From: an uncultured SAR116 cluster alpha proteobacterium
Lineage (GTDB): Bacteria; Pseudomonadota; Alphaproteobacteria; Puniceispirillales; Puniceispirillaceae
NCBI GenBank assembly: GCA_902573725.1
Contig: CACGLE010000001.1
Location: 75,479-126,756 of the forward strand
Length of the DNA stretch: 51,278 nt
Direction: 5' to 3'
Translations under genes and position numbers: made by a program
Part shown: positions 10,781-51,278 of the stretch, piece after piece
Position numbering within the stretch: the first letter of the stretch is position 1
Layout: the number at the start of each line of letters is the position of its first letter
The notes under the pieces: model-generated
Told to the model about the DNA's origin: nothing
What the model saw: the letters and a program-made list of their open reading frames with translations, nothing else
Database searches by the model: none

Positions 10781-10783
10781 GTG

Positions 10784-14196: not shown

Positions 14197-14219
14197 TTGA
14201 GCTTTTTGATCTCTTTATT

Positions 14220-14849: not shown

Positions 14850-14868
14850 TTTTCCATGACTTCTCTAG

Positions 14869-19298: not shown

Positions 19299-19306
19299 TT
19301 TTCAGT

Positions 19307-21242: not shown

Positions 21243-21258
21243 AAAAGGTTCTAACGAT

Positions 21259-25243: not shown

Positions 25244-25286
25244 AAATATGTTCCTTTTTGAGCCTGATTAGGCTACGAGTGAAGTC

Positions 25287-25796
25287 ATGGCTTTTTCATT
25301 ATTAATAACTGGTGGCGCTCGTTCTGGAAAGAGTAGTTTTGCTGAAAAACAGACTCTTAGCTATGGTAAACCCGTAATTTATATTGCAACAGCAAAGGTC
25401 TACGATAAAGAAATGGAAAAACGAATTCAAATTCATAGACAAAGGCGGGGAGATGAGTGGCTTACTGTAAACGAACCTATAGAAATTGCAGATAAATTGT
25501 TTGCCTTAGATGGGCAAGGAGCATGCCTTGTCGAATGTTTAACATTATGGCTCTCAAATCTTATGTTTGCACAAAAGGATGTATCCGTAGCAACTTCTTC
25601 TTTGATTGAAGCCATCAATGCTCGCCGTGACCCTGTGATTTTAGTTACCAATGAAGTGGGAAGCGGAATAATACCTGAAAATGAGCTAGCAAGACGGTTT
25701 CGTGATGAAGCTGGCCGTCTTAATCAGGTTGTAGCTGAGGCTGTTGATGAAGTTTATACATGCATCTCTGGTATACCGCTAAAACTAAAGCCCTAG
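25287..25796 (+). CDS. cobP: Adenosylcobinamide kinase / adenosylcobinamide-phosphate guanylyltransferase
   Basis: 169 residues with the P-loop LLITGGARSGKSSFAEKQT at the start. IYIATAKVYDKEMEKRIQIH near residue 32 includes the guanylylated-histidine region, and CLVECLTLWLSNLMF and TNEVGSGIIPENELARRFRD follow. These define CobP/CobU. The enzyme phosphorylates the aminopropanol hydroxyl and then forms adenosylcobinamide-GDP. It leads the plus-strand group cobP-cobT-cobS-DUF1636. Confidence 0.95.
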   Translation: MAFSLLITGGARSGKSSFAEKQTLSYGKPVIYIATAKVYDKEMEKRIQIHRQRRGDEWLTVNEPIEIADKLFALDGQGACLVECLTLWLSNLMFAQKDVSVATSSLIEAINARRDPVILVTNEVGSGIIPENELARRFRDEAGRLNQVVAEAVDEVYTCISGIPLKLKP

Positions 25797-25817
25797 TGAT
25801 TTAAGGGAGGATAATTT

Positions 25818-34224: not shown

Positions 34225-34332
34225 TATAATAGTTTTATCTTAAATAACATGCAAATGGATAAAAAATAACTCTATGTGCTGTGGTACATTTCTGTTATCG
34301 TTTCGTTATTTACGTTTAAAAAGTATTACGTT

Positions 34333-37300
34333 ATGACTTATATTCGCATTACTCTTACAAGCATTATTTTTGCATTGATTAGTAGCATAGCTTTATCTGA
34401 GGATTTTAAGATTATATCTTTTAAGGGTGTAGTTGAAACTTCATTCGATCAAAAAATATGGAATATTGTGGAAGACGGTGAGTTAGTGAAAACTGGCTCT
34501 TGGATTAGAACTGGTCCCAAAGCTTCGGCAATTATCTTATTACCCAATAGAACTCAAACTAAAATCTCTCGAAACGCTGAATTTCAACTTAATTATCAAG
34601 CAAAGGAAGAGAAAACGCAGGTAAACTTAAAATTGGGAAAGATTTGGTCTAAAACCAATAAGAAGCCCGCAAAAATTACGGTTAAAGCACCTAATGCAGT
34701 CGCGTCCATTAGAGGTACAGAATGGGTAATTGAAGTTCTTGAGGATTCAAGCTCAAGTTTGGCTGTTTTAGAGGGTGAAATTAAACTTGCTGGTAATGAT
34801 GGTATAACTAAAGATGTCGAAAATGGACAAATTGCCAGTGTTAATAGTAGCGGTGTAATCTCAGTTAATAAACTTCTCAATCCCGCTGATTATCTCCAAT
34901 TTATATTTAAATACGAGGTGGAACCATTCGCTTATGCACCTGAGAATGTTGGAGATAAACTTGAAAAAATAAGCAGACTTGCTGTTGTCGACCCGTCAAA
35001 AAAAACAACAGCTTGTGAACTAAATGAGATGGTAACACCAGAACGCTTTTTGGAAAGCATTGAGAATAGAGATCCAAGTTGTCTTGTAAAAATTAACCCT
35101 AATATTTTGCCCGATGGAAAGTGGAATATATGGGCTAAATTGATAAAAGCAGACGCAAATTTTGCATTGGGAGACGTTGAAACTGGTCGACAAATTCTGG
35201 ATGAAATACCGAGATCATCAGGCAAATTATATGTTGAGGGAAAATTCAATTTTTCAAATGGAGATTATGAGTTAGCAGTAAAAATGCTGTTGCAGGGTGT
35301 AGAAGAGGCTCAGAGCAAAGCTAGTTTTTATTCTTTATTGGCAGAGATAGAGCAAGCTAAAGGAAATTCTTTAAGTGCATTGGATTATTTTAAAAGAGCT
35401 AACGAGCATGATCCCTATTGGCAAAAACCACTTATTAAAATTTCTCAGATTGAAATAGCTAACGGTAACTACGACTATGCGTTAGCAGTTTTAAAGCTAG
35501 CTGAAAAATTAGGCGGTAAGACAAATTCGTTAGCAGCTGGAAAAGCACAATATTTTAGTTATAGGTATCAATTAGAAGAGGCAAGGGAAGAAGCTGCAAT
35601 AGTATTACAATCTGATCCTAATCAGATTGATATGTTAGTAGCTCTTGGGATTGTTGAATTAAAAGCTGGAAAGCATCAAGAAGCCATTGATTTTTTCGTT
35701 CAAGCATTAGCGATAGAACCTAATTATGCGAAAGCATATGTTTTTATGGCCATCGCGCATCTTCATGCTAACGAAGTCTCTCAAGCTATAACTCAATTGC
35801 AAAGAGCGATTAAACTAGATGGTCAAGACCCCTTGCCGCACATAGTTGCATCTCAAATATATTCAGCACAGCTTGAATCGGGTAAGGCAATTTATCATGC
35901 AAAACAAGCGATAGAACGAACAACAAAGGAAACTACCTGGGGGCAATTAGCCAACGATCAGCAAGGTGGTGCAAACGTTGGAAGGCGTTTTTTAGAGGTT
36001 GGTCTTCCTAACCATGCGAGGGAATCTTCCGAGGAAACGAAGGACCAAACATGGGCGGGCAGTTATCTCTTTAGGGCTGCTACAGCACCTAGCGCGCTGG
36101 AGCGAAATTCACAATATATTAGGGGTTTTACACTTGACAGTCAAACATTTGGCTCCAGGCGGGACAGTCCAGATGTTATAGCACGGCCGGGTGATTATGG
36201 TTATAGAGAGTTAAAAATTGGTCTTGGTGAAGAAAATAGTGACATAGCGCTAAAATTAGGAACTAATGGGCGAAAGTTAAATGGGAGCCAAGAATTTAGC
36301 TATCTTACTGATATTGGAATATTTCAAACTCAGAGAGATGCATATTTGGCGTCTGATGATACAGATAAATCAACATTTGGACTAGGGTTTTTTGGTCTCG
36401 GTTGGCGTGACGGATTTGATACAAATCGTTTCCTTACCGCAAATATTGTTCCTTTTGAAACAGATGGTACTTTTCCTATTGAAGATACAACCTCCAGAGT
36501 AGACTTTGGAGTTTCATTTCGAAAAGATAAATCAATTTTTTTAAATAGTTTGGCAGCAGAAAATGGAAACGCGGAGGTATCAATTAACGTTGCTGGTAAT
36601 TGCACAGGTGTAGACAAAATGAAAACCCTTGCAGGTGAATTTGGTGTTGGTGAAGTTGGGGTGAAATTAAATAATGCTGAATTATCTTGGGCTGCAGAAG
36701 GAGCGTATAGGCAAGCGGAATCTGATTACACTGTTACTGACCCAACAAGTTCAACAGCATGTAGTGATCTTTCAACAGCTTATTCAGAGCGCATAGAAAA
36801 TATTAAAAATGATGAATATGATTGGGTTGTTTCTTTTAGTTTAAAGGGAAAAAAAGCGAATTACATACGCGAGTTTAGAGCGAGGGGCCTTTTATACGAT
36901 AGAGACTTCAAACAAACACTAAGCTTAGATTCAGTGGCCCAAACAGGTGTTACATCAAATGTTAGTGAAGTTAAATTTCGACCATCGTTGGGTATATCAA
37001 ATAAAAATGAGAAATTCAGTTATTCATTAGCAGTTATACAAGACTATCACCCACTCAAACAAGCATCTCTTCATATTGACGATATTGCAGGAGTTGCAAC
37101 AAGGTATGAATTTATGAATTCGGGGGGGCATATTAATCAGGCATCGGCTCATTTCAGATATCAGATGTCAGAAAAAACAAGACTATATGCAAATGTTGAT
37201 GAATTTGAGATAAAAAATAATCCAGTTTATATCATATTTAGAGAACAATGGAACGCTGATTTATTAGAGAATTTTACACTAAATAAATTTAATAATCCAA

Positions 37301-37740
37301 ATGCAAATAGGATTTATACTCCCTCAAATTCCTTTGCTGCCGCAAGATTTAAAACCAGCGCTGTCAAAGTAGAGTCTTTGCTTTCTGATACATTGAGTAT
37401 GTATTCAGGGATTGAATTTTTAGATGGGAAGGTTATCGATCATCCTGGATATGACGAAGAGGGAGCATTTGGCCGCGTATCTGATATACCGGAAACATTA
37501 GCGCATATTGGATTAACTAAGCGTTACGATGAATTTCTAATAGGGGCTATGGCCTACCATATGGCAGGTATTGTCTCTACAGCCTATGGAACACCTTATG
37601 ATAAAACTGGTCAGAAAGTTAATTATACACGAGCATTAGTAAATGGAGAATTTGCTGCAGATTTAACCCATTCTTATACCCATGAACGAAACGATACCAG
37701 AGAATATAAAATAACTCTTACGTATAGGAGTTATTTTTAG
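34333..37740 (+). CDS. FecR domain - TPR - outer-membrane barrel protein
   Basis: 1,135 residues from the ATG at 34333, which begins a good signal peptide (MTYIRITLTSIIFALISSIA, cleavage after ALS). The longer frame starting at GTG 34276 would bury it. A FecR domain follows (about 20-190), with VKTGSWIRTGPKASAIILL and VKAPNAVASIRGTEWVIEV. Tetratricopeptide repeats lie at about 270-570 (for example ALGIVELKAGKHQEAIDFF). The long C-terminal part (about 600-1135) has alternating strands and a terminal phenylalanine, as in outer-membrane barrels. It overlaps the CHASE2 cyclase gene by one base. This gene pair is found in many Proteobacteria near large surface proteins; its function is not settled. 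Confidence 0.85.
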   Translation: MTYIRITLTSIIFALISSIALSEDFKIISFKGVVETSFDQKIWNIVEDGELVKTGSWIRTGPKASAIILLPNRTQTKISRNAEFQLNYQAKEEKTQVNLKLGKIWSKTNKKPAKITVKAPNAVASIRGTEWVIEVLEDSSSSLAVLEGEIKLAGNDGITKDVENGQIASVNSSGVISVNKLLNPADYLQFIFKYEVEPFAYAPENVGDKLEKISRLAVVDPSKKTTACELNEMVTPERFLESIENRDPSCLVKINPNILPDGKWNIWAKLIKADANFALGDVETGRQILDEIPRSSGKLYVEGKFNFSNGDYELAVKMLLQGVEEAQSKASFYSLLAEIEQAKGNSLSALDYFKRANEHDPYWQKPLIKISQIEIANGNYDYALAVLKLAEKLGGKTNSLAAGKAQYFSYRYQLEEAREEAAIVLQSDPNQIDMLVALGIVELKAGKHQEAIDFFVQALAIEPNYAKAYVFMAIAHLHANEVSQAITQLQRAIKLDGQDPLPHIVASQIYSAQLESGKAIYHAKQAIERTTKETTWGQLANDQQGGANVGRRFLEVGLPNHARESSEETKDQTWAGSYLFRAATAPSALERNSQYIRGFTLDSQTFGSRRDSPDVIARPGDYGYRELKIGLGEENSDIALKLGTNGRKLNGSQEFSYLTDIGIFQTQRDAYLASDDTDKSTFGLGFFGLGWRDGFDTNRFLTANIVPFETDGTFPIEDTTSRVDFGVSFRKDKSIFLNSLAAENGNAEVSINVAGNCTGVDKMKTLAGEFGVGEVGVKLNNAELSWAAEGAYRQAESDYTVTDPTSSTACSDLSTAYSERIENIKNDEYDWVVSFSLKGKKANYIREFRARGLLYDRDFKQTLSLDSVAQTGVTSNVSEVKFRPSLGISNKNEKFSYSLAVIQDYHPLKQASLHIDDIAGVATRYEFMNSGGHINQASAHFRYQMSEKTRLYANVDEFEIKNNPVYIIFREQWNADLLENFTLNKFNNPNANRIYTPSNSFAAARFKTSAVKVESLLSDTLSMYSGIEFLDGKVIDHPGYDEEGAFGRVSDIPETLAHIGLTKRYDEFLIGAMAYHMAGIVSTAYGTPYDKTGQKVNYTRALVNGEFAADLTHSYTHERNDTREYKITLTYRSYF

Positions 37741-39701
37741 TGAAAATTGGCAAGCAGTGGAAAATAGCTTTAGTCGTAGCTTTTCTAGGTAATATATTTT
37801 CCTATTTTGTTTTACTTGGACCTACAGAACGGCTAAATATTGACGTTCTTAATGTATTGTCGCCTTCGAATGCGCCATCAAATGATATCATTGTTGTAGC
37901 AATAGATGAAAACTCATTTTCTGCTTTTGAAACACAATGGCCTTGGCCACGTGAACTTCATGGGATGTTGGTAGAGCGATTGGTAGAGGAAGGTGCTCGC
38001 GATATTATTTTCGATGTGGTTTTTGCAGAACCCTCTGAGCCCGAATCAGATGGGTATTTCGCAGAGGCAATATCAATGGCAGATAATGTAATCTTGGCAT
38101 CAGACCTTACAGCTGTGGATGATGGTTTTATGTCAGGTGTGATAGAAACTCGACCATTCATTGATTTTGAAGAAGCTGGAGCAAGGGTTGGTCTTGCTGG
38201 TGTTGATCAGGATAATGACCGGGTAATTAGATACTTTCCATCATTCGAAGGTACACTCTCTTCGGTTGCAGCTCAGATAGAAGAAGTTCCATCAGAACGC
38301 TCTAGAATAATAAACTATGTAGGAGAAGATCATTCATTTAATTATCTATCCTATTATCAATTTTTCCTAGAGGACGGTGTTGAGCCTGGGGCTATTGAGG
38401 ATAAATACGTGTTAATAGGTCTTGATGTAAAAGCAACGCCGGATGTTCAGAAAAGTCAGGTAGATGCATTTCCCACCCCACATACCCGATTTAATGCTAG
38501 ATTGTCTCCAGGCGTAGAAGTTCACGCAAATATGCTTCATAATTTGTTAAATGAGAGTTGGATTATAAATCCATCAACAGAACAAAAGATCATTTATTTG
38601 GCTTTAATGGCGGTTATTGGTTTTCTTGCTACACAGACATTTAACCCTTTTTCCTCAGCTGCAATGTTACTGGTTTCTGGAGCAGGAGCATTCGGGGTTT
38701 CAATAATAACATGGCAACAAGGATATTTTCTTACCTCGTTTGCAGCTTTTCCCTCGTTTATTTTTAGCTTTGTAGCATCAGGAGCACATGCTTACCTCAC
38801 AGAAGGAAAACAAAAAAGACAGATTAAAGGTGCTTTTGCACAATACCTTGCACCTGATATGGTTGATGCATTGATTGCTGATCCAGACAAATTAACTCTT
38901 GGTGGTGAGAAGAGAAAAATGACTATTATGTTTTGTGATGTTAGGGGTTTTACAGCTATATCAGAGGCATTGAAAGACCGACCAGAGGTATTGGCTGAGG
39001 TAATAAATACCTTATTAACAGAGCTTACAAATGACATTCTCGAAACTGGGGGGACTATAGATAAATACATGGGTGATTGTATTATGGCATTCTGGAATGC
39101 GCCAGTTGAAAACCCAAAACACGCCGAGCAAGCCGTTGAAGCAGCAAAAAAAATGATGAAAACAATATATAGAGTGAACGAGAAGATCGGAGCAGAGGGT
39201 AAAGTATTGTTTGATCTTAGAATAGGTATCGGGATTGCAACAGGCGAGTGTGTGGTTGGAAATATGGGTTCCAAGCAGAGATTTGATTACACTGTACTAG
39301 GTGACGTGGTAAATCTAGCCTCTAGATTAGAAGGACAGACAAAGGGATACGGAATTACAACCGTTTTATGTAAAAATACCGCTTCTTCTCTTAATAGCAC
39401 CGAAAATAAAGTGCTGGAAATAGATAAAATAAGAGTGAAAGGCAAAAAAGACCCAGAAGTTATTTACGGATTATTGGAAGAAAGTGCTTCGACAAGAGAA
39501 TTGGAAGCAGTATTAGTTTATTTACAAAAATTTAGGTCAGGTGATTTCAAGGGTTCGATGGCCTCGCTAAAACCATTGATAAATCAGAAAGACGGCCCGC
39601 TTAAAGTGTTTGCATCTCTCATGACAGAGAGAGTGACCCCGTTATCAAAGAAACCATTGAAGAAAAATTGGGACGGTGTGTTCACAGCAGAAACAAAATA
39701 G
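37740..39701 (+). CDS. CHASE2-domain class III adenylate/guanylate cyclase
   Basis: 653 residues. An N-terminal transmembrane helix (about 8-26) and a periplasmic CHASE2 sensor domain (about 35-280; VAIDENSF, WPWPRELHGML, IIFDVVFAEPS) come first. Three transmembrane helices (about 283-355) lead to a cytoplasmic catalytic domain (about 390-580). MFCDVRGFTAISE gives metal-binding Asp400, DKYMGDCIMAFWNAP gives Lys442 and Asp446, and YTVLGDVVNLASRLEG gives Asp522. The Lys/Asp pair favours ATP, hence cAMP. The GTG start overlaps the FecR stop by one base, so the two are coupled. Its product could be read by the cNMP-binding protein at 32993 or by Crp-type regulators elsewhere. Confidence 0.92.
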   Translation: MKIGKQWKIALVVAFLGNIFSYFVLLGPTERLNIDVLNVLSPSNAPSNDIIVVAIDENSFSAFETQWPWPRELHGMLVERLVEEGARDIIFDVVFAEPSEPESDGYFAEAISMADNVILASDLTAVDDGFMSGVIETRPFIDFEEAGARVGLAGVDQDNDRVIRYFPSFEGTLSSVAAQIEEVPSERSRIINYVGEDHSFNYLSYYQFFLEDGVEPGAIEDKYVLIGLDVKATPDVQKSQVDAFPTPHTRFNARLSPGVEVHANMLHNLLNESWIINPSTEQKIIYLALMAVIGFLATQTFNPFSSAAMLLVSGAGAFGVSIITWQQGYFLTSFAAFPSFIFSFVASGAHAYLTEGKQKRQIKGAFAQYLAPDMVDALIADPDKLTLGGEKRKMTIMFCDVRGFTAISEALKDRPEVLAEVINTLLTELTNDILETGGTIDKYMGDCIMAFWNAPVENPKHAEQAVEAAKKMMKTIYRVNEKIGAEGKVLFDLRIGIGIATGECVVGNMGSKQRFDYTVLGDVVNLASRLEGQTKGYGITTVLCKNTASSLNSTENKVLEIDKIRVKGKKDPEVIYGLLEESASTRELEAVLVYLQKFRSGDFKGSMASLKPLINQKDGPLKVFASLMTERVTPLSKKPLKKNWDGVFTAETK

Positions 39702-39723: not shown

Positions 39724-40530
39724 TTAATTATCAGAAATTACTGGGACAATAGCATTTTCTAATTCTAAATAAATCCTGATTGCCTTTAAGGGTTGCTCTG
39801 GTTGGAGAGGCCGTGTGGTTGGCAGGTTGGGCATGCCATCTAAAAAACCAAGTAAAATTGCACTTTTTGTGGAGAAATTCACATTCTGAGTGAGGTCATT
39901 GGTTTTTTCTGAAATTTTTAAGGCATCCAGTTTTGATTGTACAACACCAACGACGGTGCCCCCTGGACCAATCAAGGGGCCTCCAGAATTACCTTTTTGA
40001 ACTTCTGCACTAAACTGAAATGAATCTTTGTTATCCCTCAGACCAGTGCTGCTGTTAACAATGCCTCTTGTTATTTTGGGAGTAAGACCCTGTATCGCTA
40101 CTTGCGGATATCCAATCGTTACCACATCCATTCCAGCTGGCACACCTTTGGAATGAGAAAGATAAAGAAACGGGGTTATTGCTTTCACTTTTAACAATGC
40201 TAAGTCTAATTCTTTATTCGTTTTTACAATACTCGCTTCAAATAAACGTTTTCTGTCAACCAATACCTTAATTTTTTTATAACCATCAATTACATGAAAC
40301 GAAGTGACAAGATATCCAGAGTCGTTTACAAAAAATCCAGTTGCTATTGAACGATTTTCGGACGTGTTTTGTGCTAATTTAGTGAGAAGGTCAGGTTCAA
40401 GTTCCTGTGAATTAGCGTTCTGGAATATAAAACAAAATAAAAATACCAATAACAATAACGCCCTGAACTTATTGGAAAAGCAGTCGATTTTTTTTCCTTT
40501 AAAATTCTTTCTTATTATAAAAATTTGCAT
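39724..40530 (-). CDS. Exported trypsin-like serine protease
   Basis: 268 residues. An extended n-region and hydrophobic core (about 22-37) give a signal peptide, likely cut after NANS. The chymotrypsin-fold domain shows the triad: His79 in TSFHVIDGY, Asp109 in KELDLALLKV and Ser182 in KGNSGGPLIGPGG. There is no PDZ domain, so it is a short relative of the DegP/HtrA (S1C) group. It is the last gene of an operon, beginning one base after the FixJ-type regulator, and probably acts in the periplasm as part of signal processing or on the secreted products of the locus. It converges on the cyclase gene; no clear terminator lies between. Confidence 0.88.
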   Translation of the reverse strand: MQIFIIRKNFKGKKIDCFSNKFRALLLLVFLFCFIFQNANSQELEPDLLTKLAQNTSENRSIATGFFVNDSGYLVTSFHVIDGYKKIKVLVDRKRLFEASIVKTNKELDLALLKVKAITPFLYLSHSKGVPAGMDVVTIGYPQVAIQGLTPKITRGIVNSSTGLRDNKDSFQFSAEVQKGNSGGPLIGPGGTVVGVVQSKLDALKISEKTNDLTQNVNFSTKSAILLGFLDGMPNLPTTRPLQPEQPLKAIRIYLELENAIVPVISDN

Positions 40531-40531
40531 A

Positions 40532-41215
40532 TCACCTCAATTTGGAGTCATTCAGTTGAAGATATCTCTCATATTGTCGGGTGAGTTCAATGGCATTAGT
40601 GGCATTCATCTTTTTCAGAATTCTGGCTCGATGCAACTCTATTGTTCGAATACTATTTTTTAATTTTTCGGATATTTGTTTATTTGAAAGACCTCTCACT
40701 ATATTATTTAGCACCTCAGTTTCTCTGTCGGTTAATTCATTCATACGTTCTTCAAATAGCTGCGTAAAATTACGTTCTTTTTGAAGTTCTTTGGATAAAT
40801 TCATAGCATCTTCAACTCTATTCAGCAATTCTTCTGAATTTACTGGCTTTGTCATGAAGTCAAAAGCTCCATTTTTTATTGCAGAAACGCCCATGTCAAT
40901 GTCGCCATGCCCTGTAAGAAATATAACAGGTTGCGTTGCAACGGCTTCAGATTTTATTCTTTCAAAAAGCTCTAACCCGTTCATAGATGGTAGTCTCACA
41001 TCAATTAAAAAACACTGTAGTTTGAGTTTGGAAGCGGGTTGATTTTTTTTATTTTGAACAGAAGATATATTGTTTTTTTCTTCTAAATAGGCTTCCGCTG
41101 AGTTGTGCAGAAAAGTGTTATAACCAGCCCCCCTGAATAATGCCTCCATAGCTTTTCCAAGGTCGACATCATCTTCAATGATCGTAAGTATTTTTTGGGT
41201 ATTATCAGACGACAT
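40532..41215 (-). CDS. FixJ/NarL-type response regulator
   Basis: 227 residues. The receiver domain (1-140) has IIEDDVDLG at 12-20, phospho-acceptor Asp72 in CFLIDVRLPSMNGLELF, FLTGHGDIDMGVSAIKNGA and the lysine in DFMTKPVNSEELL. The LuxR/FixJ helix-turn-helix (about 158-215) carries LTDRETEVLNNIVRGLSNKQ and RTIELHRARILKKM. A polar insertion of about 15-18 residues (around 47-65, NNISSVQNKKNQPASK) precedes the phosphorylated aspartate and is not usual in FixJ. Its start overlaps the kinase stop by 11 bp, so the pair is cognate. I infer that it binds the TGCGGAAACTAC boxes at 43796-45161, whose reverse complement resembles FixJ sites. Confidence 0.93.
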   Translation of the reverse strand: MSSDNTQKILTIIEDDVDLGKAMEALFRGAGYNTFLHNSAEAYLEEKNNISSVQNKKNQPASKLKLQCFLIDVRLPSMNGLELFERIKSEAVATQPVIFLTGHGDIDMGVSAIKNGAFDFMTKPVNSEELLNRVEDAMNLSKELQKERNFTQLFEERMNELTDRETEVLNNIVRGLSNKQISEKLKNSIRTIELHRARILKKMNATNAIELTRQYERYLQLNDSKLR

Positions 41216-42845
41216 CTTTAATACTCACTAGTCTATCGGTGTCAAAATATTCAGTTTCTAAGTTCTTAATAAAAGTTTTACGAGTTGGAATTGAAACAAT
41301 AAAATTCATTCCTTGAGAGCTGTTATTATCAATGGTCATGGTTGCGGAGCATTGCTCGCAAAGTGATTTGCATAGACTCAATCCGAGACCATTTCCATAC
41401 TCTTTAGTTGTAAAAAAAGGTTCAAAAATATTGTTAATTTCTGAAATGCTAATTCCTGGTCCATTATCGCCAACAATTAGTTGGACGATTTCCTGTTCAT
41501 TCTTATTTTTTTCTAGTTTTGACGATATTGTTAATTCACGATTTTCAGTTTTTGCATCAGCCATAGCTTCGATACCGTTATATGCAAAGTTCGTGATTAT
41601 CTGCTCTATTGCAACTAAATTAGTAAATACTTTTTGCTCAGGATCAATTTTCCAGTAGACTTTTGTATCATTTTTCTTGGCTTTAAGCTCTATTACTGCC
41701 TCAACATTTTTCTTTAAATCATCCAAAAATACATAATTGTTTTGGGAAACAGTCAATTTTCTAGTGGAAAGCATTGATTTCATAATTGTTCCACAACGAA
41801 TGGTTTGTCTTCTGATTTCTTCAATATTTTTTGCCAACTCGTTTTTGGAGTAACTCTTTTTTGCAATCAAATCCTGAGATAATTTTGCATATATCTCAAT
41901 CGCCGAGATTGGCTGATTTACCTCATGTGAGATAGCTGTCGCAATCTCCCCTATTGAGGCTAGGTTCGACTGTTTTTGGGCTCGTTCAGCTATTTCTTCA
42001 ATTTGTTTCTCTCTGTTAACGCGCTTAAGATGTTCAAACCAATAAAAAATGAGAGAAATCCATAAGAGAAAATTTGCGCTTAGAATAAGTATTGTATCAG
42101 AGGAGAACATCCATCTAGGAAACCAAGATAATCCCCAAAACCCTTCTGAACGAGCTCTATAGATTTGAAAACGAATATTTGGTTGTTCTAATTTTACCTC
42201 AAATTTATCCAAGATTTTAACGTTATTTTTTTTGAAGTCAGTAAGGTCTACGTCTTTAGGTGAAATAATAAGACTGTTATCCCCAAATGGAAGATTTTCT
42301 TTGAAAAGAGATGTGAGATTGATTTTTCCGAATGATGTGTAATTTTTTCCAAATGCGTCTGCTAACGTTATGGAAAATGGAAGGAGATATTGACTATTTT
42401 GATTCTCAAATGATGCTCCATAAATGAAACGGTTCTTTAAATTACGGCTTGCGGTTTGTAAAGCAGGCAAGGCTAATTTAAGAAAGGTATCATTAGATGC
42501 TGTAATACCTGACTTACTATATACAGACGAAAGATTATCATCTCCATCTGAAACTGTAAAAACTTCGATGCTTTCTAGCCACTCTATTTCATCGACTAAA
42601 TTTCCTAAGCCTTTGAATTCACTTGTATTATTAAAGGAGGCTATATATTTATCTTCGAATTTTCTAAATTTTATGGACATGGTATCTAATACGCTCGACC
42701 GCATTCTTTCTTTGAAAGCAATCGTTTTTTGATTGAAAAGCTCTAAACTTATCTGGATTGAGATCGCAAATAGCATGACAAGGAGAACCATAATAAAAAT
42801 AGTTCCTTTCCTTATTTCAAAAGATGTTTGTTTCAACTTGTTCAT
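41205..42845 (-). CDS. Sensor histidine kinase (DctB/FixL-like HPK4 type)
   Basis: 546 residues. TM1 (about 14-36) and TM2 (about 250-270) enclose a periplasmic sensor region of about 210 residues that I do not recognise. A linker helix rich in charged residues leads to the HisKA domain, with SIGEIATAISHEVNQPISAI and phospho-acceptor His307. The HATPase domain (about 400-535) has NFAYNGIEAMADA (N box), VGDNGPGISISEI and GLGLSLCKSLCEQ. The HEVNQP motif is typical of kinases that pair with FixJ- or DctD-type regulators. It overlaps the coiled-coil gene upstream by four bases and the regulator by 11 bp. It probably senses an envelope signal, perhaps through the coiled-coil protein. Confidence 0.92.
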   Translation of the reverse strand: MNKLKQTSFEIRKGTIFIMVLLVMLFAISIQISLELFNQKTIAFKERMRSSVLDTMSIKFRKFEDKYIASFNNTSEFKGLGNLVDEIEWLESIEVFTVSDGDDNLSSVYSKSGITASNDTFLKLALPALQTASRNLKNRFIYGASFENQNSQYLLPFSITLADAFGKNYTSFGKINLTSLFKENLPFGDNSLIISPKDVDLTDFKKNNVKILDKFEVKLEQPNIRFQIYRARSEGFWGLSWFPRWMFSSDTILILSANFLLWISLIFYWFEHLKRVNREKQIEEIAERAQKQSNLASIGEIATAISHEVNQPISAIEIYAKLSQDLIAKKSYSKNELAKNIEEIRRQTIRCGTIMKSMLSTRKLTVSQNNYVFLDDLKKNVEAVIELKAKKNDTKVYWKIDPEQKVFTNLVAIEQIITNFAYNGIEAMADAKTENRELTISSKLEKNKNEQEIVQLIVGDNGPGISISEINNIFEPFFTTKEYGNGLGLSLCKSLCEQCSATMTIDNNSSQGMNFIVSIPTRKTFIKNLETEYFDTDRLVSIKDVV

Positions 42846-43531
42846 TTCTTTTGCATTTCTTGCACTTGAGTTTTGAGAGTTTGTAATTTTGTTTCGTAGA
42901 AAGAGTTTGTCTCACCAACGCTTTTTGATATAAGTTCTTGGTATGAATTAAATATGTTTACAGTGAATCCGCTCGATGCACATTGTTTAGCTTCCAAACG
43001 AAGAAGCCTATCGAATGATTCATACATTTTTTCTGATATTTGTTTTTGTTCTAAAATTTGTGACAGGACTTCATCAGAGGTCTTTTTTAACCTTCTTGAT
43101 TTCCCGCATACAGAAGCATTCTGAGTGTTTTCTATGAGCAAATCAAATAAACTGCAGTTTTCTGAGACAAGTCCATCAGAGTTTGTATTTATTCTTACAA
43201 TTGAGTTTTGGATTAAAGAGAGGGTTTTTAGATTTTCTTCCCGTTCTTGATTGATGCTATTTTTTAACTGAACGATATTTGAGTCAGAGTTTACATCTGG
43301 TAAATCAGAGAAACACGAGCGCTCAAGTGAGTTTATCCCGGATGTCATGGCTTCGTGAGCGTCATTTTGGATAGATAAAAAAGACTCTATTTCATCTGTA
43401 ATTTTTTTGTTTTCAGCAAATACATCATTCGTTTGTGAGATAATAAAAAACAGTGAGGCCAAGGCGGCAAGCACTACAAAACTAAATCGCTTTCGGAAAA
43501 AGGATAAATAATGTTGAGGAGTTCTAACCAT
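42842..43531 (-). CDS. Periplasmic coiled-coil protein, first gene of the kinase operon
   Basis: 229 residues with a hydrophobic segment (about 17-33, FVVLAALASLFFIISQT) followed by a possible cleavage site at VFA-EN, so it is exported or anchored. The rest is mainly helical, with predicted coiled coils (about 40-110 and 145-229). Four or five cysteines (about Cys68, Cys126, Cys141, Cys183) could form disulfides. I do not recognise the family. Four-base overlap with the kinase gene indicates tight co-translation; a periplasmic ligand-sensing or kinase-modulating partner is the simplest idea. The upstream 453 bp contain two of the TGCGGA boxes. Confidence 0.7.
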   Translation of the reverse strand: MVRTPQHYLSFFRKRFSFVVLAALASLFFIISQTNDVFAENKKITDEIESFLSIQNDAHEAMTSGINSLERSCFSDLPDVNSDSNIVQLKNSINQEREENLKTLSLIQNSIVRINTNSDGLVSENCSLFDLLIENTQNASVCGKSRRLKKTSDEVLSQILEQKQISEKMYESFDRLLRLEAKQCASSGFTVNIFNSYQELISKSVGETNSFYETKLQTLKTQVQEMQKK

Positions 43532-43795
43532 TTAGGAACTTCAGCCATCTCATTTAAATAAATAAATAATAGTTTTTGTTGAAAAACATTATCTTAGGTC
43601 GCCTCTGTTTGCAATAATGATTGTATTTTATAAGATGAATGCAAAATTTAGGTGCAAAAAATTATTTTCGTGAATTCGTTGGATGTAAATATTCAATTAC
43701 TCAAAATTTATGGTCGAACAACTCTATAAACTCATGAAAAAATATTAAAAACAATAGGTTAGTAAAAAACCACTTAAATAACTTAAAAATAAATT

Positions 43796-43814
43796 TGCGG
43801 ATACTACGTATAAC
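43796..43814. promoter_or_regulatory. FixJ-like box 1 (variant)
   Basis: TGCGGATACTACGTATAAC; one core mismatch (GGAT for GGAA) against the other copies. On the minus strand it reads ATACGTAGTATCCGCA. Confidence 0.55.
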
Positions 43815-43886
43815 TTTTTTCGCATATTTCACCACAATTTTTACAGCTCTAACTGACTGTTTCTGTTATTGGGGGTATTCAGCTTT

Positions 43887-43905
43887 TGCGGAAACTACCT
43901 ATTAA
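43887..43905. promoter_or_regulatory. FixJ-like box 2
   Basis: TGCGGAAACTACCTATTAA, nearly identical to box 3 more than 1 kb away on the other side of the sulfotransferase-like gene. Its position about 355 bp upstream of the kinase operon would allow autoregulation. Confidence 0.6.
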
Positions 43906-43984
43906 TTTAAATAAGCAATTCTATACAGTTTTTGCACAGATAGCATTAGAATAAAACCTATCAGCAACAGCATACAGTAGTTTG

Positions 43985-44728
43985 CTATAAGCTGTATTGC
44001 AATCTATCACAGACATTTTTAAGGTGCGGGATTTTCCTCATTTTTTCCCGAGTCTCCGAGTAAAGTTGCCTTTGAGGTAATGCCCTAAGTTCTTTTAGCT
44101 CAATGCCCCTTGATCCATCTTTTACGTTGTCACCTGTAATCTTGGTATTAGCATGGAAGGCGTTTAAACTTGCACTTGAAATATTGATATTTAAAGCTGA
44201 AGAAGTTGTTCTGAGAACTTCTTCGGGGTATCTTATTAAGTCTTCATAGCGAATTATTGGCACGCCCTCAATAGAATGGTTGAACGCGATATAACCTCGA
44301 CAAAAGAGTTCAAAGCTCATATATTTTTTAATTGGTGCGAAATTCATCATGGATAAAAATTGGTCAACTGGATTTCGGACCAAAGCGAGTCTGTTTAGCA
44401 CAAACCTATCTGCGAGTGTTTTTACGCTTAATGCATTCAGACTACACCTCCTAAAAAGGAAATCCTGATGAGAGAGGTCTCTGATGATTATTTTTTTTGT
44501 GGTATGCTCTTCTAAAAAGGAAATACAATCAGTATAGCTATCGATTGACTTAGGAATCGCTATTTTATGGAATTTCAAACATTGTTCTCTAATATCTCTG
44601 CCTCTTCTAGAGGGGTGCACTTCCGACAAGACAAGGATTTCTCGAGAATTGCCTAAAATTTTGGCAAATACAGTGCCTCCGGTCCTTGACAGTTGATGTA
44701 TAATTGAGACGGAAATACGCTTATCCAC
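43985..44728 (-). CDS. Sulfotransferase-like protein
   Basis: 247 residues. An N-terminal HQLSRTGGTVFAKILGNSR (about 11-29) resembles the PAPS 5'-phosphosulfate loop, which usually reads RSGTT. RLALVRNPVDQFLSMMNFAP (about 132-151) matches the 3'-phosphate-binding motif RNP-D-S, and IIRYEDLIRYPEEVLR follows. This supports a sulfotransferase fold acting on a carbohydrate or protein. No start overlap with neighbours is seen; it is 253 bp or more from either array of TGCGGAAACTAC boxes, which flank it on both sides. Substitution of the usual RSGTT loop means that activity is not assured. Sulfation of a surface glycan or of the giant neighbour protein is only a possibility. Confidence 0.75.
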   Translation of the reverse strand: MDKRISVSIIHQLSRTGGTVFAKILGNSREILVLSEVHPSRRGRDIREQCLKFHKIAIPKSIDSYTDCISFLEEHTTKKIIIRDLSHQDFLFRRCSLNALSVKTLADRFVLNRLALVRNPVDQFLSMMNFAPIKKYMSFELFCRGYIAFNHSIEGVPIIRYEDLIRYPEEVLRTTSSALNINISSASLNAFHANTKITGDNVKDGSRGIELKELRALPQRQLYSETREKMRKIPHLKNVCDRLQYSL

Positions 44729-45002
44729 AGGTCAAATCCATACAAGTAACAAATATATTATGTTGCAACAAAAAAACAGATATTCGCAGTATATCATTGG
44801 TTTTAAAAGTTGGTAATGAAATGTTTCGAAAAAGAATTATCAAACAAAGGATTTGCTGGAATAAAACGGAAAATAGAATACGATGCTAAATCTAATTTTA
44901 AATGAAACTGCAGCGATTAAACCTTATATATCTAGGACGCCCAGAGTGATTCGCAACTTATCCAAATTTCTCAATAAATCAGAACAAAATGGGGGTTTTT
45001 TT

Positions 45003-45021
45003 TGCGGAAACTACCTATTAT
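45003..45021. promoter_or_regulatory. FixJ-like box 3
   Basis: TGCGGAAACTACCTATTAT, first of four regularly spaced copies before the giant gene; the next copy begins 46 bp later. Confidence 0.6.
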
Positions 45022-45048
45022 TTTTTTTATAAAAAACAAGGGAGAATA

Positions 45049-45067
45049 TGCGGAAACTACGTATTTT
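45049..45067. promoter_or_regulatory. FixJ-like box 4
   Basis: TGCGGAAACTACGTATTTT; on the minus strand ATACGTAGTTTCCGCA. The next copy begins 47 bp later. Confidence 0.6.
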
Positions 45068-45095
45068 CAGTTTTAAATATAAAAAAAGTTGACTT

Positions 45096-45114
45096 TGCGG
45101 AAACTACGTATTAG
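45096..45114. promoter_or_regulatory. FixJ-like box 5
   Basis: TGCGGAAACTACGTATTAG, preceded by TTGACTT as in box 6; the next copy begins 47 bp later. Confidence 0.6.
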
Positions 45115-45142
45115 TTTTTTGGCCTATGAAAGGAATTGACTT

Positions 45143-45161
45143 TGCGGAAACTACGTACTAA
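45143..45161. promoter_or_regulatory. FixJ-like box 6
   Basis: TGCGGAAACTACGTACTAA. The minus strand contains GTACGTAG, an exact fit to the GTAMGTAG FixJ class I consensus as I recall it. It ends 48 bp before the ATG of the giant gene and is preceded by TTGACTT. Confidence 0.65.
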
Positions 45162-45208
45162 GCTTTGAATGGTAAATTTCGTGAATCGGTCAGGTACAGG
45201 GTGTTGTT

Positions 45209-48200
45209 ATGAAAATGAATGGTTTAAACATTATAAAAAACAGTGAGGACCTTAGGCATTTTAAAGAAGTGTTAATATTCGATAGGAACGTATCGGATGT
45301 GGATGTTCTATTGGCTTCTGTTGATAAGCACGTTGGTCTGTTACTTGCCGAAGGAACAAATATTATCTCACAAATGTGTGATGTGATTATTTCGGGCGTT
45401 CAAAAACTTCATATACTTGGCCATGGTGAACCTGGCCGGGTAATTTTAGATGGTTTTTATTTGGATAGTGGAGCGTGGGATAAAATAGCATCCATCATTC
45501 GTATAAATCACGATGATACAGGTGATACCTATTATTTTGGTTTATCCGAACCAAATGCACGGAATTACGTAAGGGAATATATTTTTAAGAAGAATATGCA
45601 GATTAATTTTTGGTCATGCAAAACCGGAGATGGAATTATGGGAAAGAAATATACACAAAAAATCGCAGACATGCTTAATGCAAATGTTAATGCGTCTTCA
45701 ACCCCGGTAGGGCATGAGAAATTAGGTGGTAATTGGGAGTTAAATGTTATGTCAAATCCAAAGGTACCGTTCAGTACAGAAGCAATACAAAACTTTGAGC
45801 ATATTTTGAGTCATTCCACATATATAGGGCAAAAAGGCGGTTTGATCGTTAAGGGAACGTCTGAATTTTCCGTAGGTGAATCAAAGTATCATTACAATTT
45901 ATTTTTAAGCAGAGCTGACGCTGATAATATCGGAAATAAATTCAAGGCTGAGGGTGAACCAACTCCATCGGTACTAGAATTAAGCCTTGATGAATATCCG
46001 GGAATTACGTTTTTCTATTCGAATGCCTCTAATTTGGAGGACGGGGTTATAAATCCGGTAGCTAATCTGAGCGAGTTGGATACAAATACCCCTGTAAGTT
46101 TTGAATACAGTTACGGTGAAGATCAAAGCCAAGGCTTAGTTTTCCTTAGAGCTTCCGATGCAAATATTTCAAGCCAGCAATCTGATGCCTTCAATCAAAG
46201 CTACACTAATAGCTTTGGATACATGGGTCTTAATTCGGGCACTGTTTTGGCTGGTTCCATTAGCGAATTGAATCAATTGTCACCAGCGGTCATCAGCAAT
46301 TCAGGATTGTCTGACTATCCAGGTCCAGGTAATTTGGGTGCCAGTCAATATAATTATAATAACGACATTAATTTTGTAATAATCGATAGTGCTCAAAATA
46401 TAGCAGATTATTATAACGCGTTTTTGGGCCAAGTTGGCGCGACAAATGTTGACGTTGCCCTTGTTCTGCAGGATACAGCAGATAATATATACACCCGTCT
46501 TGAAAATACTAATCCTGCTGATGCCATGCATGTGCGTTTTTGGTCACAATTTGAGCAAATGTCGATTGATTTTGATGGTTCAACCCTCACACCGGCAGAT
46601 GTAATGCAAAAATTTAATGAGTGGAGAAGCGATCCAAGCCTCAATACGGATCCTTCTGCAACTCAGTTAGGTAATATTAATGACATACATGTCACAACAT
46701 ATAATGGCACTCCTTTTTATACGCAGCCAGCCAGTGAAACTCCACCAGCCGACTACACACCACCAGCCGGAGTAGCGACCGTAAATTTGGTGGATGTTAC
46801 TCTAGATACTCTGGTAGATTCTGTTGAGCGCGCAGATGTCGCAACAATCTTACTTGATACATCGATAGCAAGTTCAGACTTACCAGGTAATGCAGACTTA
46901 CCAGGAATCTCAGCTGAACAATTTGCTGCTTTAATAAGTCCAAAGGTTCAAAATTACAGTGGTAGTCATGTACGTGTTGAAGATACCGGTGCGAATTTTG
47001 CTGAAAATTCAGACACAGCATTGCTTGAAGGTTTAGCTTTTCGTATCGCGCAACTTCAATCCGTTGACCCTGGTTTTCAAGCAACAGAGGTGACATTAGA
47101 AATCACTGATGCTAATCCACGTGAAGCTGGTCTTGCGTCTCTATTTGTTGAATTTGCAAGGGATTTGGGTCTGACAATTCGAGATGTTACCGTTAATCTT
47201 GATAATAGCGTGCTTGATGAGAGTTATTTAGGTCTTTCCGTGAGAGAGGCGCTCGCTATTGTCAATGCTGAAATTCCACCCTCTGACACATCAAAAATTA
47301 CCATCGTTGATACAAGTAATGAAATCCTCTCTAATATCGACGAATTCGGTGCTGGTGGAGACTTATCATTTATCTCTTCTAATAAAATAACAGCACAAAA
47401 TGTTGAAGTGGACGACATCAATGAAGTTACCAGTGCTCAAATCGATGGGGGTAACCTAATTGGAAGTATCGAGCTCAGTGAGAATAACTTAGCGATAAAT
47501 GCTGGAAGACAATTTGACTTGGAAACATCACTCAGTCTTATCGATAGTCGTGTTGTGAATGCGCCCCAAGTTGCGGCGTTAAACATCTCAGAAAATGGTA
47601 GCGTCATCTCCCAAAATGCGGCTGAATTTCAAGCTGGTGGCAGGTTATCTGGAGCAGATAGCGTAGAGGCAACTGATGTGAGGGTCAATGAGGCTCTAAC
47701 CCTTGATGGGCTTGGATTCTTAGATTCAATGGTCATAGTAGATGATGCAGCCAGTATCGTCTCATTTATGGAGTCTAATGCCGGTGATAGCCTTAGTGCA
47801 AATTTCTCCCTATTTGCAGAGGGTGCAACCGTAGAACAGGTTGAAAATGGTCCTTTAGCTAGTGTTGGATATTCGTTAACGGATAGCGTGGAAAACATAT
47901 TGAATGCAGCTGCCGAAATATCCAATGATGCTGCGGAAGTAAATGTGAATGCTGGTATTGACAGATCTCTAACATTGGATGAAATGAGATCTCTTGTGGA
48001 AATAGTAGGCTCATTCCCCGCCGATATTCCTATGAATGTTTCAGATGAGCCAAATGCTATCCTTGGGTTTAAAAATAGTGCGGTTTCCTCCGAGCGTTTG
48101 GCTGTTTATGACTCAGATTCACTTTCTGCTGTTGGTGTTGCAGGTCAGACGGTCACACTCGAAAACATTAATGAATTGAGGGAATTAAAGCATTTTGACC

Positions 48201-51200
48201 TTAGTGGTTCATCCTTCAACGTCCTTGAGGATAATACCGGCGTTGTATTAGCTTTAATTCGGGGAGATGACCCAGACAAAGCAACTATTTTATCAAATAG
48301 CAATATAGAAATTGACGAGTTAAATGATAGCGGCAGCTCGATTGTTTCTGATTTAAATATTGCCGATGCAACAGCATTAGTTAATGCCGGCGTTGCTTTT
48401 ACAGCTAGCGGTTATAACATCAGTGATGTTGCAACAAGCATTGAAAATGCTGCTAGTGGTCTTACAAGCGCTACTTATGGCGCTACCATTCTAGGCGTCG
48501 CAAATACTGTAAATTCTACAGATACGTTTATTACAGCGACTATCTCCGAAGCAGAAGCTCTTCTTCTTAATTACGCAGACTCCTATCGGATTAACGATAC
48601 GGTGGCAAATATACAAGCTGAAATGGATGGGGCCTCAACCTCTGTCGGTTCATCGCTTTTGACAGGTGCTACCGATACAGGTCCTGGCGTTGCCGTATTT
48701 GCAAGTGATGCAAGTGCAGAAAATAAGATAGATATAAATGCTTTGGAAGTGTTTGCGTACCATAGTAGGCTCAGCCCCTCCCAGGTAAGCATCACAGACA
48801 GTGCAACTAGTGTTTCGGCTAACCCTGGACTTTTTGAGTCCCCTTTACATTATGGGCCTATTGATCCTGCTACTGCTTTTGTTCAATCCCCACAGCTCAG
48901 TCCTGTTACTATGAAAGTAAGTAATGCAGATAATCATGACCTGCAATCGAATATTTCTTTGGCTACATTTGAAAATATTGACGTTATCGATATTTCTGGT
49001 GCAACGGCAACTGTAATTATGCCGCTTGTTGCTGCCGAGAAGCTAACTGCTGACTCCTTCAGTTCGGGATCATCCGGCGTTCAGGTTGTCGATACACCAA
49101 TAATCGGAAGCATGCATTTGGATCCGGGTGATTCGTTCTTCACGCATGAAATTCCGGCTCTCACGCCAAGAGTACCAGTTACAATCACTACAAAGGATGT
49201 AGGAACTCTTGATTCGAATATGAATGATACGGTTATAAATATTCTTGATTCAAATGGAAATGTTGTCACTCAAAACGACGACATAAATCCAGGTAGCGGT
49301 GATTATTACTCAACCGTTACATTTGACCCACAACCAGGAGAAACCTACACAGCATATGTAAGTTCATATAATAATCAAGATTTTCCTAACGATGGCCCGC
49401 AACGACCTGGATATGGTCTTGTGTTAGACCAGTCCTCAGCCACTGGAATTGGGTTTGTTGATTTAGTGAGCCAAAGCGCCCTTCCTGTTGATTGGGATAT
49501 CGCGGACCTGGCGGTAAATGACGGTAGCGGTTCAACAGCTTCTTTCTCCATTAAAGATGACGCCGACATTCTTGTTGCAGCTCTTCAAACAAGGCAAGAG
49601 GCAAGAGATTTGGCTCAAGTAGCTGATTCTGTTGAGATTTTTGGGGTTTCTTTTCAAGATGCTCTTACGCTCAACTCAGACGGGTTTAGTTCAAATATTA
49701 CTGGTGTGAATCTTTCAATTCGTTTGCTAGAACCCCTGGATAATCCCTCCACCACGCTTAGTGTTGCAGAAGCAACCGCTGTAAATAATGCGAGCGTTAT
49801 TAATAAGCTTGCTACTTATGATATCAAAGACGATTTCGATAATATTGACACGACAGCTGCTATTATGGGTAATGCGACGCAGGTTGTTGCCACTAATATC
49901 GATAGCTTGGAAGATATGAGGTCCGCCTTTAATAATGCTGGGATCAGTTCGTTTGAGTTCAGTCATTCTTTGCTTATCGGAACCGAGAGTAACTTTTTGA
50001 GCAATATTAGCGTTGCTGATTATAAGATGTTGAGCAAAACATCCGATGTACCTTCAATTAGCCCATACTCACTAGCGTCTATCAATGATAGCGTAGATAA
50101 CATCGAGACCGCTCTGGTAGCTGATTCCCAGGTTTTCTCTCCTCTCTTAGGCATTCCTAGCGTTCCTAGTAACGACATACACGCAACCGAAGCAGACGTT
50201 AATGATGCATTGAATATGCAAAGCAACACCCCAGGAACAGTTGGGTCGGTGGCGGCTTCATTTGATCTTGCGCGTGTAGAAACTTGGGATGCAGGGCTAA
50301 GGTCTGTAGGTTTTGCTAACTCCTCTCCAAAAGAGGGTTTTCCTCTTCAAAATCGTGATTATCTAGTGGTTCCAAATGACAGTCCGGATAGTGAGGCGAC
50401 AGAGCTTACCTTGGTACATTTAGATGGAAATACGGCTCAGCCAAACTCCATGAGTGTATCGGATAGCGCAGCTACTTTTACAGTCTCAAAGGAAGACCAT
50501 CCTGCATTATTTAATCATGCGATATCCTATAATACCAGACCTTTTGGCGATCCCGGTTATAATTCTACGCCGGAAAGCATTAATCCAATCTATATGGAGC
50601 TCTCAACCATTCAAGAAGCTACAGCGATCTTAGAAGCACGCAATGCTCCAACAATCGATAATCTTACGCTTGATATCAGGGTTCAGGATTTCGTTTCAGA
50701 TGCAAATGCATTCGGTGTTGATAATGCAGGGTTTCCTGCAGCGGGCATTCCCGCTCCTGGGGCTGGTAATGGATTGCCTGATAATTTCTTTGTTGATGTA
50801 GAACGTGTTTTTATTAACGATGTAAGTACAATAGAACAGGCAGTTTTATTTAATTCTGACACTATTTCTCCCATCGTCGATAAGTACAGTCTTGCGTTTG
50901 ATTTTGTAGATCGAAAGCTTACTGTTGAAGAAGCTGAGGCTGTCTTGAATGCAGATAATGCAGGTAGTATTATTCCATCATATGCGATTGCCGATAACGC
51001 TTCCGCCATTAAGGGTGCTTTAAATTCTGCGGAATTAGCCGGTCTTATTACAAATGCAGACTCTGTTGAAGCATTTAATGCTTCGATTGGGGATGCTGTA
51101 GAGCTTAGATTTGGCACAAGTGATTTTAGTGTTCATGTAGATACATTACATATAACACCTCCTGCTGCGGACCGCATTTATACGGTAGAAGAATATGTTG

Positions 51201-51278
51201 CTGCAACGGACTCGGCTGTGCTTACTTCTATCCCTGGTGACTCAAGAGTAGAAGATAATTTGGCTAATATAGCGTTTC
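45209..51278 (+). CDS. Giant DUF4347 repeat-containing surface/secreted protein, 5' part
   Basis: The frame is open from ATG 45209 to the window end, giving at least 2,023 residues with no stop. The N-terminal 200 residues match DUF4347: LHILGHGEPGRVILDG (about 72-87), FWSCKTGDGIMGKKY (about 133-147) and VGHEKLGGNWELNVMS (about 170-185). There is no N-terminal signal peptide, which fits type I secretion with a C-terminal signal beyond the window. From about residue 380 a loose repeat recurs with the pattern (Y/V)xIxDxxxxI, e.g. VIIDSAQNIADYY, YSLTDSVENILNA, YNISDVATSIENA, YRINDTVANIQAE, ASINDSVDNIETA and YAIADNASAIKGA. Residues about 1300-1400 resemble a PPC-like domain (DTVINILDSNGNVVTQNDDI). 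The composition is rich in Asp, Ala, Ser and Asn and poor in Cys, as in large bacterial adhesins. Confidence 0.85.
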   Translation, partial: MKMNGLNIIKNSEDLRHFKEVLIFDRNVSDVDVLLASVDKHVGLLLAEGTNIISQMCDVIISGVQKLHILGHGEPGRVILDGFYLDSGAWDKIASIIRINHDDTGDTYYFGLSEPNARNYVREYIFKKNMQINFWSCKTGDGIMGKKYTQKIADMLNANVNASSTPVGHEKLGGNWELNVMSNPKVPFSTEAIQNFEHILSHSTYIGQKGGLIVKGTSEFSVGESKYHYNLFLSRADADNIGNKFKAEGEPTPSVLELSLDEYPGITFFYSNASNLEDGVINPVANLSELDTNTPVSFEYSYGEDQSQGLVFLRASDANISSQQSDAFNQSYTNSFGYMGLNSGTVLAGSISELNQLSPAVISNSGLSDYPGPGNLGASQYNYNNDINFVIIDSAQNIADYYNAFLGQVGATNVDVALVLQDTADNIYTRLENTNPADAMHVRFWSQFEQMSIDFDGSTLTPADVMQKFNEWRSDPSLNTDPSATQLGNINDIHVTTYNGTPFYTQPASETPPADYTPPAGVATVNLVDVTLDTLVDSVERADVATILLDTSIASSDLPGNADLPGISAEQFAALISPKVQNYSGSHVRVEDTGANFAENSDTALLEGLAFRIAQLQSVDPGFQATEVTLEITDANPREAGLASLFVEFARDLGLTIRDVTVNLDNSVLDESYLGLSVREALAIVNAEIPPSDTSKITIVDTSNEILSNIDEFGAGGDLSFISSNKITAQNVEVDDINEVTSAQIDGGNLIGSIELSENNLAINAGRQFDLETSLSLIDSRVVNAPQVAALNISENGSVISQNAAEFQAGGRLSGADSVEATDVRVNEALTLDGLGFLDSMVIVDDAASIVSFMESNAGDSLSANFSLFAEGATVEQVENGPLASVGYSLTDSVENILNAAAEISNDAAEVNVNAGIDRSLTLDEMRSLVEIVGSFPADIPMNVSDEPNAILGFKNSAVSSERLAVYDSDSLSAVGVAGQTVTLENINELRELKHFDLSGSSFNVLEDNTGVVLALIRGDDPDKATILSNSNIEIDELNDSGSSIVSDLNIADATALVNAGVAFTASGYNISDVATSIENAASGLTSATYGATILGVANTVNSTDTFITATISEAEALLLNYADSYRINDTVANIQAEMDGASTSVGSSLLTGATDTGPGVAVFASDASAENKIDINALEVFAYHSRLSPSQVSITDSATSVSANPGLFESPLHYGPIDPATAFVQSPQLSPVTMKVSNADNHDLQSNISLATFENIDVIDISGATATVIMPLVAAEKLTADSFSSGSSGVQVVDTPIIGSMHLDPGDSFFTHEIPALTPRVPVTITTKDVGTLDSNMNDTVINILDSNGNVVTQNDDINPGSGDYYSTVTFDPQPGETYTAYVSSYNNQDFPNDGPQRPGYGLVLDQSSATGIGFVDLVSQSALPVDWDIADLAVNDGSGSTASFSIKDDADILVAALQTRQEARDLAQVADSVEIFGVSFQDALTLNSDGFSSNITGVNLSIRLLEPLDNPSTTLSVAEATAVNNASVINKLATYDIKDDFDNIDTTAAIMGNATQVVATNIDSLEDMRSAFNNAGISSFEFSHSLLIGTESNFLSNISVADYKMLSKTSDVPSISPYSLASINDSVDNIETALVADSQVFSPLLGIPSVPSNDIHATEADVNDALNMQSNTPGTVGSVAASFDLARVETWDAGLRSVGFANSSPKEGFPLQNRDYLVVPNDSPDSEATELTLVHLDGNTAQPNSMSVSDSAATFTVSKEDHPALFNHAISYNTRPFGDPGYNSTPESINPIYMELSTIQEATAILEARNAPTIDNLTLDIRVQDFVSDANAFGVDNAGFPAAGIPAPGAGNGLPDNFFVDVERVFINDVSTIEQAVLFNSDTISPIVDKYSLAFDFVDRKLTVEEAEAVLNADNAGSIIPSYAIADNASAIKGALNSAELAGLITNADSVEAFNASIGDAVELRFGTSDFSVHVDTLHITPPAADRIYTVEEYVAATDSAVLTSIPGDSRVEDNLANIAF

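Follow-up and report, generated by a model that had tools for sequence, protein, structure and literature searches.

The locus described here raises the question of which protein, if any, reads a set of near-identical DNA boxes standing before a giant gene, and with what effect on that gene. The window, that is, the whole stretch of 51,278 nucleotides that was analysed, comes from an uncultured alphaproteobacterium of the SAR116 cluster. The initial annotation had reported six copies of a FixJ-like motif in it, all in one orientation and starting at 43796 (with one mismatch), 43887, 45003, 45049, 45096 and 45143; all six were recovered. They share a TGCGG(A/T)AACTAC(G/C)TA-like core, lie on the + strand, and fall in two intergenic gaps, 43532-43984 and 44729-45208. 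Box 1 (43795..43810, +; TTGCGGATACTACGTA, one mismatch), in the gap upstream of an operon that encodes a small protein, a kinase and a regulator, is followed by box 2 (43886..43901, +; TTGCGGAAACTACCTA). Box 3 (45002..45017, +; TTGCGGAAACTACCTA) opens a regular array, which continues with box 4 (45048..45063, +; ATGCGGAAACTACGTA). Together with the hexamer upstream of each, boxes 5 (45089..45110, +) and 6 (45136..45157, +) form the same 22-bp unit, TTGACTTTGCGGAAACTACGTA, identical at 22 of 22 positions to the site in a congener, G001. The motif was first given as 19 bp long, a length that did not hold: the core common to all boxes measures 15-16 bp, and the 22-bp unit is limited to boxes 5 and 6 and the congener.

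This set of boxes is discrete, and the observation is real. None of the six boxes departs from TTGCGGAAACTACGTA at more than one position, whereas every other site in the two gaps does so at five or more. When up to three mismatches were allowed across the window, the six matches found were the boxes alone (shuffled controls: mean 1.64, maximum 5). Similarly, the genome-wide search that had been proposed as a check returned the six boxes as the sole sites with at most one mismatch in the 1.45 Mb available for this genome (75 contigs, 64% complete). At two mismatches, a single extra site appeared, within a coding frame, and no intergenic ones.

The spacing of the boxes is equally regular. Start-to-start distances of 46, 47 and 47 bp in the array, and of 91 bp between boxes 1 and 2, are correct as originally given; a search for a hidden box halfway through the 91-bp interval found none. 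For four boxes placed at random in the array's gap, regularity within 1 bp has a probability of 1.6e-4. Adjacent boxes are about 4.4-4.5 helical turns apart, so neighbours should alternate between opposite faces of the helix, and alternate boxes (93-94 bp, about 8.9 turns) are nearly in phase. Such regularity might also be expected if a promoter fragment had been duplicated in tandem, or if the boxes were a dispersed repeat, with no regulatory role in either case, and the spacers between boxes 4 and 5 and between boxes 5 and 6 do align better than shuffled sequences (p 0.001). However, once their common TTGACTT is removed, the likeness of these spacers is not significant (p 0.17), in contrast to the nearly perfect boxes, and this argues that the boxes themselves have been held constant. 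In addition, the box is perfect in G001, which has no array, and no dispersed family exists in the window's genome. We therefore regard a functionless repeat as very improbable. Past tandem duplication, which the initial annotation had suggested, seems doubtful as a recent event, and the pattern would fit selection on the boxes after an old duplication more than recent copying.

If the boxes are binding sites, their sequence points to a protein of the FixJ family. Their reverse complement, TACGTA-GTTT-CCGCAA, has a 6-4-6 layout and can be set beside the fixK FixJ site of S. meliloti, TAAGTA-ATTT-CCCTTA (hyphens added here), and the two FixJ consensuses obtained by in vitro selection (SELEX), GTAGTTTCCC and GTAMGTAG (PMC4999443). 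The boxes match the fixK site at 10-11 of 16 positions (11 in four of the six boxes), GTAGTTTCCC at 8-9 of 10 (9 in five boxes) and GTAMGTAG at 6-8 of 8 (7-8 in boxes 4-6). Both SELEX consensuses are matched as well as in boxes 4-6 by about 1e-5 of random and 4e-5 of shuffled 19-mers; by SELEX consensus and fixK match, the boxes are candidate FixJ-type binding sites. The proposed FixJ likeness is thus borne out, and more strongly than it had been argued: the first reading relied on GTAMGTAG alone, so the 9/10 match to GTAGTTTCCC is independent support, to which the 11/16 match to the fixK site and the 6-4-6 layout are added.

A regulator of this family is encoded beside boxes 1 and 2. The response regulator gene (40532..41215, -) specifies a receiver domain (PF00072, E 2.4e-20) and a GerE domain (PF00196, E 2.8e-16), which makes its product a member of the NarL/FixJ-type family and the probable binder of the boxes. 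Its phospho-acceptor, Asp72 in the motif IDVRLP, is invariant, and it matches the solved FixJ structure 5xso over its full length (7.6e-31). The membrane histidine kinase (41205..42845, -) combines HisKA and HATPase_c domains with an N-terminal sensor region that belongs to no Pfam family; no PAS domain, the mark of the haem-binding FixL sensor, was found in it. Because the regulator scores 159.7 bits against the FixJ equivalog model (NCBIfam NF006900, cut-off 255) and its kinase has no detected PAS domain, the pair constitutes a FixJ-family system rather than FixLJ. The operon begins with a gene for a small protein (42842..43531, -) with a hydrophobic N-terminal stretch and four conserved cysteines, and ends with a trypsin-like (HtrA-type) peptidase gene (39724..40530, -), a conserved marker of the locus. 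The small protein heads the operon in all three species compared and evolves fast (28% identical in G001, 21% in G004), with its four cysteines invariant; it is possibly a periplasmic co-sensor or partner of the kinase. The peptidase is 63-75% identical across species, compared with 25-33% for the kinase and 39-43% for the regulator.

The initial annotation had assigned the boxes to this neighbouring regulator, and that assignment is supported. It is the sole protein with a GerE/LuxR domain (PF00196) found in the 64%-complete genome, and the box is kept alongside it in a congener; on these two grounds, it is the predicted binder. Binding by some other DNA-binding protein is improbable in our judgement. 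The incompleteness of the genome, whose missing part may hold further LuxR-type regulators or sites, leaves room for such a protein, as does the congener G004, which keeps the kinase-regulator pair without the exact box. Against it stand the agreement of the boxes with both SELEX consensuses and with the fixK site, the single GerE-domain protein found, and the retention in G001 of the box together with an identical recognition helix.

The probable main target is the giant gene (45209..51277, +), which encodes at least 2,023 amino acids and whose reading frame is still open where the window ends. Its N-terminal DUF4347 domain (PF14252) scores 71.1 bits against a cut-off of 24.6 (E 1.2e-19), and the size and repeats of the protein suggest that it is probably surface-exposed. 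The first reading had missed the place of the promoter-proximal box, which is flanked by -35 and -10 hexamers: box 6 is preceded by a -35-like TTGACT (45136, +) and followed by a weak -10-like TAAGCT (45159-45164, +). The latter matches the consensus at three of six positions, which is why a consensus scan does not list a promoter there. The spacer of TTGACT-N16-TATAGT is taken up by the box in G001, where a scan covering 400 bp of both strands gave no other promoter-like match. The same box-in-promoter arrangement precedes the giant gene of G004, as TTGACA-TATGTAAAAGTACGTA-TATGGT (N16), which contains GTACGTA.

The nearness of the box to the start codon and to -35/-10-like hexamers would also suit a transcribed RNA element or the promoter of an alternative sigma factor. 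Nevertheless, an Rfam search gave no match, and a transcript started from the G001 or G004 promoter would not include the box, which there precedes the -10 hexamer. Moreover, no TTGAC hexamer accompanies boxes 1-4, and what is repeated is therefore the box, not a promoter. Both the RNA and the sigma-factor readings therefore appear extremely improbable.

Among congeners, G001 shares the kinase operon, the genes for a FecR-TPR protein and a cyclase, and the DUF4347 gene, and has no sulfotransferase gene. Its one perfect box stands 65 bp ahead of the start codon of the giant gene (box 6: 66 bp), and the 22-bp unit TTGACTTTGCGGAAACTACGTA stands 72 bp from that codon in G001 and 73 bp in the window. 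This position, kept in a second species, supports the giant gene as the target that had been proposed. The regulators of G001 and the window are 43-44% identical overall, with an identical 12-residue recognition helix (NSIRTIELHRAR); that of G004, a more distant congener, is 39-40% identical and its helix differs at two positions. When the G001 28-mer was compared with G004, its best match was the TTGACA-N16-TATGGT before the giant gene, with no shuffle out of 2000 doing as well. G004 no longer has the full box: the promoter and the TACGTA half are kept, and the left half of the box is unconserved. A search of the G004 gap with the box alone placed the best match at another position (11/16), and 213 of 2000 shuffles did as well. 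Identity between the G001 and G004 upstream regions, taken alone and ignoring position, is not above chance, whereas the promoter-plus-box pattern is. Of the relatives with the same kinase-regulator pair, in which conservation of the motif had been expected, G001 thus carries a perfect box and G004 lacks the full one; since the exact box occurs in two genomes only, its conservation rests on one independent comparison.

Other congeners extend this picture little. The G003 contig with the giant gene begins at its DUF4347 domain, and a search of G009 found no DUF4347 gene. A search of five further congeners yielded no match to the regulator, although G008 shows a fragment of the peptidase at a contig end. 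These five have few box matches at up to two mismatches, no commoner than those of a reversed-pattern control. At this threshold, the congener matches in G008 and G003 are in coding frames; of the two in G007, one is likewise coding and one is intergenic, with two mismatches. Class- and order-wide searches based on the peptidase found the locus in the genus only, and the likeliest other candidate, G229, has no such neighbourhood.

From the sequence, positions and conservation of the boxes, their FixJ resemblance and the family of the regulator, we infer binding, its sign, the signal and the ancestry of the array. The boxes are likely, with some confidence, to be operators through which the neighbouring FixJ-type regulator controls the giant gene, be it positively or negatively. 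On this reading, a single dimer of the regulator would occupy each box, whose 6-4-6 layout (minus strand, TACGTA-GTTT-CCGCAA) is asymmetric. A dimer on the promoter-proximal box, between TTGACT and the -10 hexamer, would compete directly with RNA polymerase, and an envelope signal, acting through the kinase, may either lift this repression or bring it about. In the lineage of the window, a single site like that of G001 may have given rise to the array of four and to the two boxes beside the kinase operon.

The sign of control is a finer matter. The place of the box within the -35/-10 spacer favours repression or another form of core-promoter control, and because a dimer there should exclude RNA polymerase, repression by occlusion is, provided that the regulator binds, somewhat the likelier sign. 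There is a precedent in R. palustris, in which FixJ represses a promoter (PMC13327599). For the whole claim that the giant gene is specifically repressed, our confidence falls a little short of even. The opposite sign, which is a branch of the same operator explanation and not a fully separate one, would have the phosphorylated regulator activate the gene, with boxes 3-5 recruiting RNA polymerase to a promoter that coincides with box 6 or follows it. Activated promoters often have several sites upstream, and the weak -10 after box 6 would fit an activated one. FixJ itself is classically an activator at fixK, where it acts from further upstream, at sites -69 to -44 and -57 to -31; the known fixK sites lie upstream of or over the -35 region, not between the hexamers (PMC4999443). 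However, the sole box of G001 lies between TTGACT and TATAGT, where such an activator would block the polymerase, and further downstream there is no good alternative -10 that leaves space for a ribosome-binding site. Activation is accordingly the less likely sign, and we consider it rather unlikely. As an operator array, the boxes might do more: spacer-bound FixJ-family control, combined with operators that alternate around the helix, could through cooperative or looped binding give a sharp on/off switch of the surface protein, a suggestion that we make tentatively and consider less likely than not.

Two further targets had been suggested, the operon of the kinase and regulator and the gene between the two box clusters. 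Boxes 1 and 2 stand 265 and 356 bp from the start of the kinase operon, so autoregulation is possible; the case is weaker, since the single G001 box (246 bp from the operon start there) lies in a divergent gap and G004 has no operon-adjacent box. The gene between the clusters (43985..44728, -) had been called a sulfotransferase, an assignment that holds only loosely: it scores 16.6 bits against the Pfam Sulfotransfer_1 cut-off of 22 (E 0.0054), and its motifs LSRTGGT and LVRNPVDQFLS suggest a divergent member. As a target, it is unsupported, being absent from the G001 locus and replaced by a different enzyme gene in the G004 gap. Species differ in the enzyme gene that they carry between the kinase operon and the giant gene: the sulfotransferase-like gene in the window, a TPR and glycosyltransferase 41 (OGT-like) gene in G004 (L132 3497-5611), and none in G001. 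These enzymes could modify the giant protein.

Other neighbours accompany the locus as well. Genes for a FecR-TPR protein and a CHASE2 adenylate/guanylate cyclase (window 34276-39701), convergent to the kinase operon and overlapping each other by 1 base, occur with the locus in all four congeners examined, and this company suggests a cyclic-nucleotide link to the same system. Further away, window positions 8314-26822 hold a large cobalamin biosynthesis cluster (CobN, CobW, two CbiA/GATase_3 and a DBI_PRT phosphoribosyltransferase).

Further matches to the box were also examined. A scan of species-representative genomes with TGCGGAAACTACNTA gave matches that, among those listed, are scattered and in many cases within coding frames. 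The single match in G030 is coding, and the 16-mer lies within coding frames in six viral contigs, one copy (in L170) being at an open end. In the betaproteobacterial contigs L044, L057, L058, L009, L063, L080 and L086, the same 15-mer appears in recurring contexts: as an inverted pair with CCGTAGTTT(G/A)CGC in Rhodocyclaceae, and in Rhodoferax/Comamonadaceae as TGCGGAAACTACCTAG, which in L009 adjoins a TctC-type receptor gene. These 15-mers perhaps belong to other FixJ-type regulons or to dispersed repeats. Their neighbours, where checked, are neither DUF4347 genes nor this kinase-regulator pair, and the matches were therefore rejected as evidence.

Taken as a whole, the locus probably represents a two-component system that switches this one giant gene. 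Regulation of giant surface proteins seems to be little described in SAR116, an abundant ocean lineage, and among the papers searched, none dealt with the regulation of DUF4347 proteins in its title or abstract. At this one locus, the sequence suffices to name the regulator, its predicted operator and its probable target, and the array offers a direct test of how FixJ-type sites behave inside a promoter.

Among known systems, the FixLJ system of Rhodopseudomonas palustris resembles the proposed one in that a FixJ-type protein binds and represses a promoter, that of nifHDK; it differs in its target and its oxygen-sensing kinase, and an array is not described in the accessible part of the source (PMC13327599). 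With rhizobial FixL/FixJ, the window shares a full-length receiver and GerE regulator and a 6-4-6 operator that matches both SELEX consensuses. Unlike FixL, the window's kinase has another N-terminal sensor region and no detected PAS domain; the probable target in the window is the giant DUF4347 gene, whereas the rhizobial targets are fixK and nifA, and the site lies inside the core promoter and is present at the locus in six copies. TtrS/TtrR and StyR-like systems have regulators of the same family: the best solved-structure match of the window's regulator is 1yio, a response regulatory protein that we take to be StyR, and TtrR is its second-best NCBIfam model. It differs from TtrR, with 136.5 bits against an equivalog cut-off of 290, and no tetrathionate or styrene genes were seen near the locus. 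The kinds of component assembled here are known; the array and the overlap of box and promoter are unusual.
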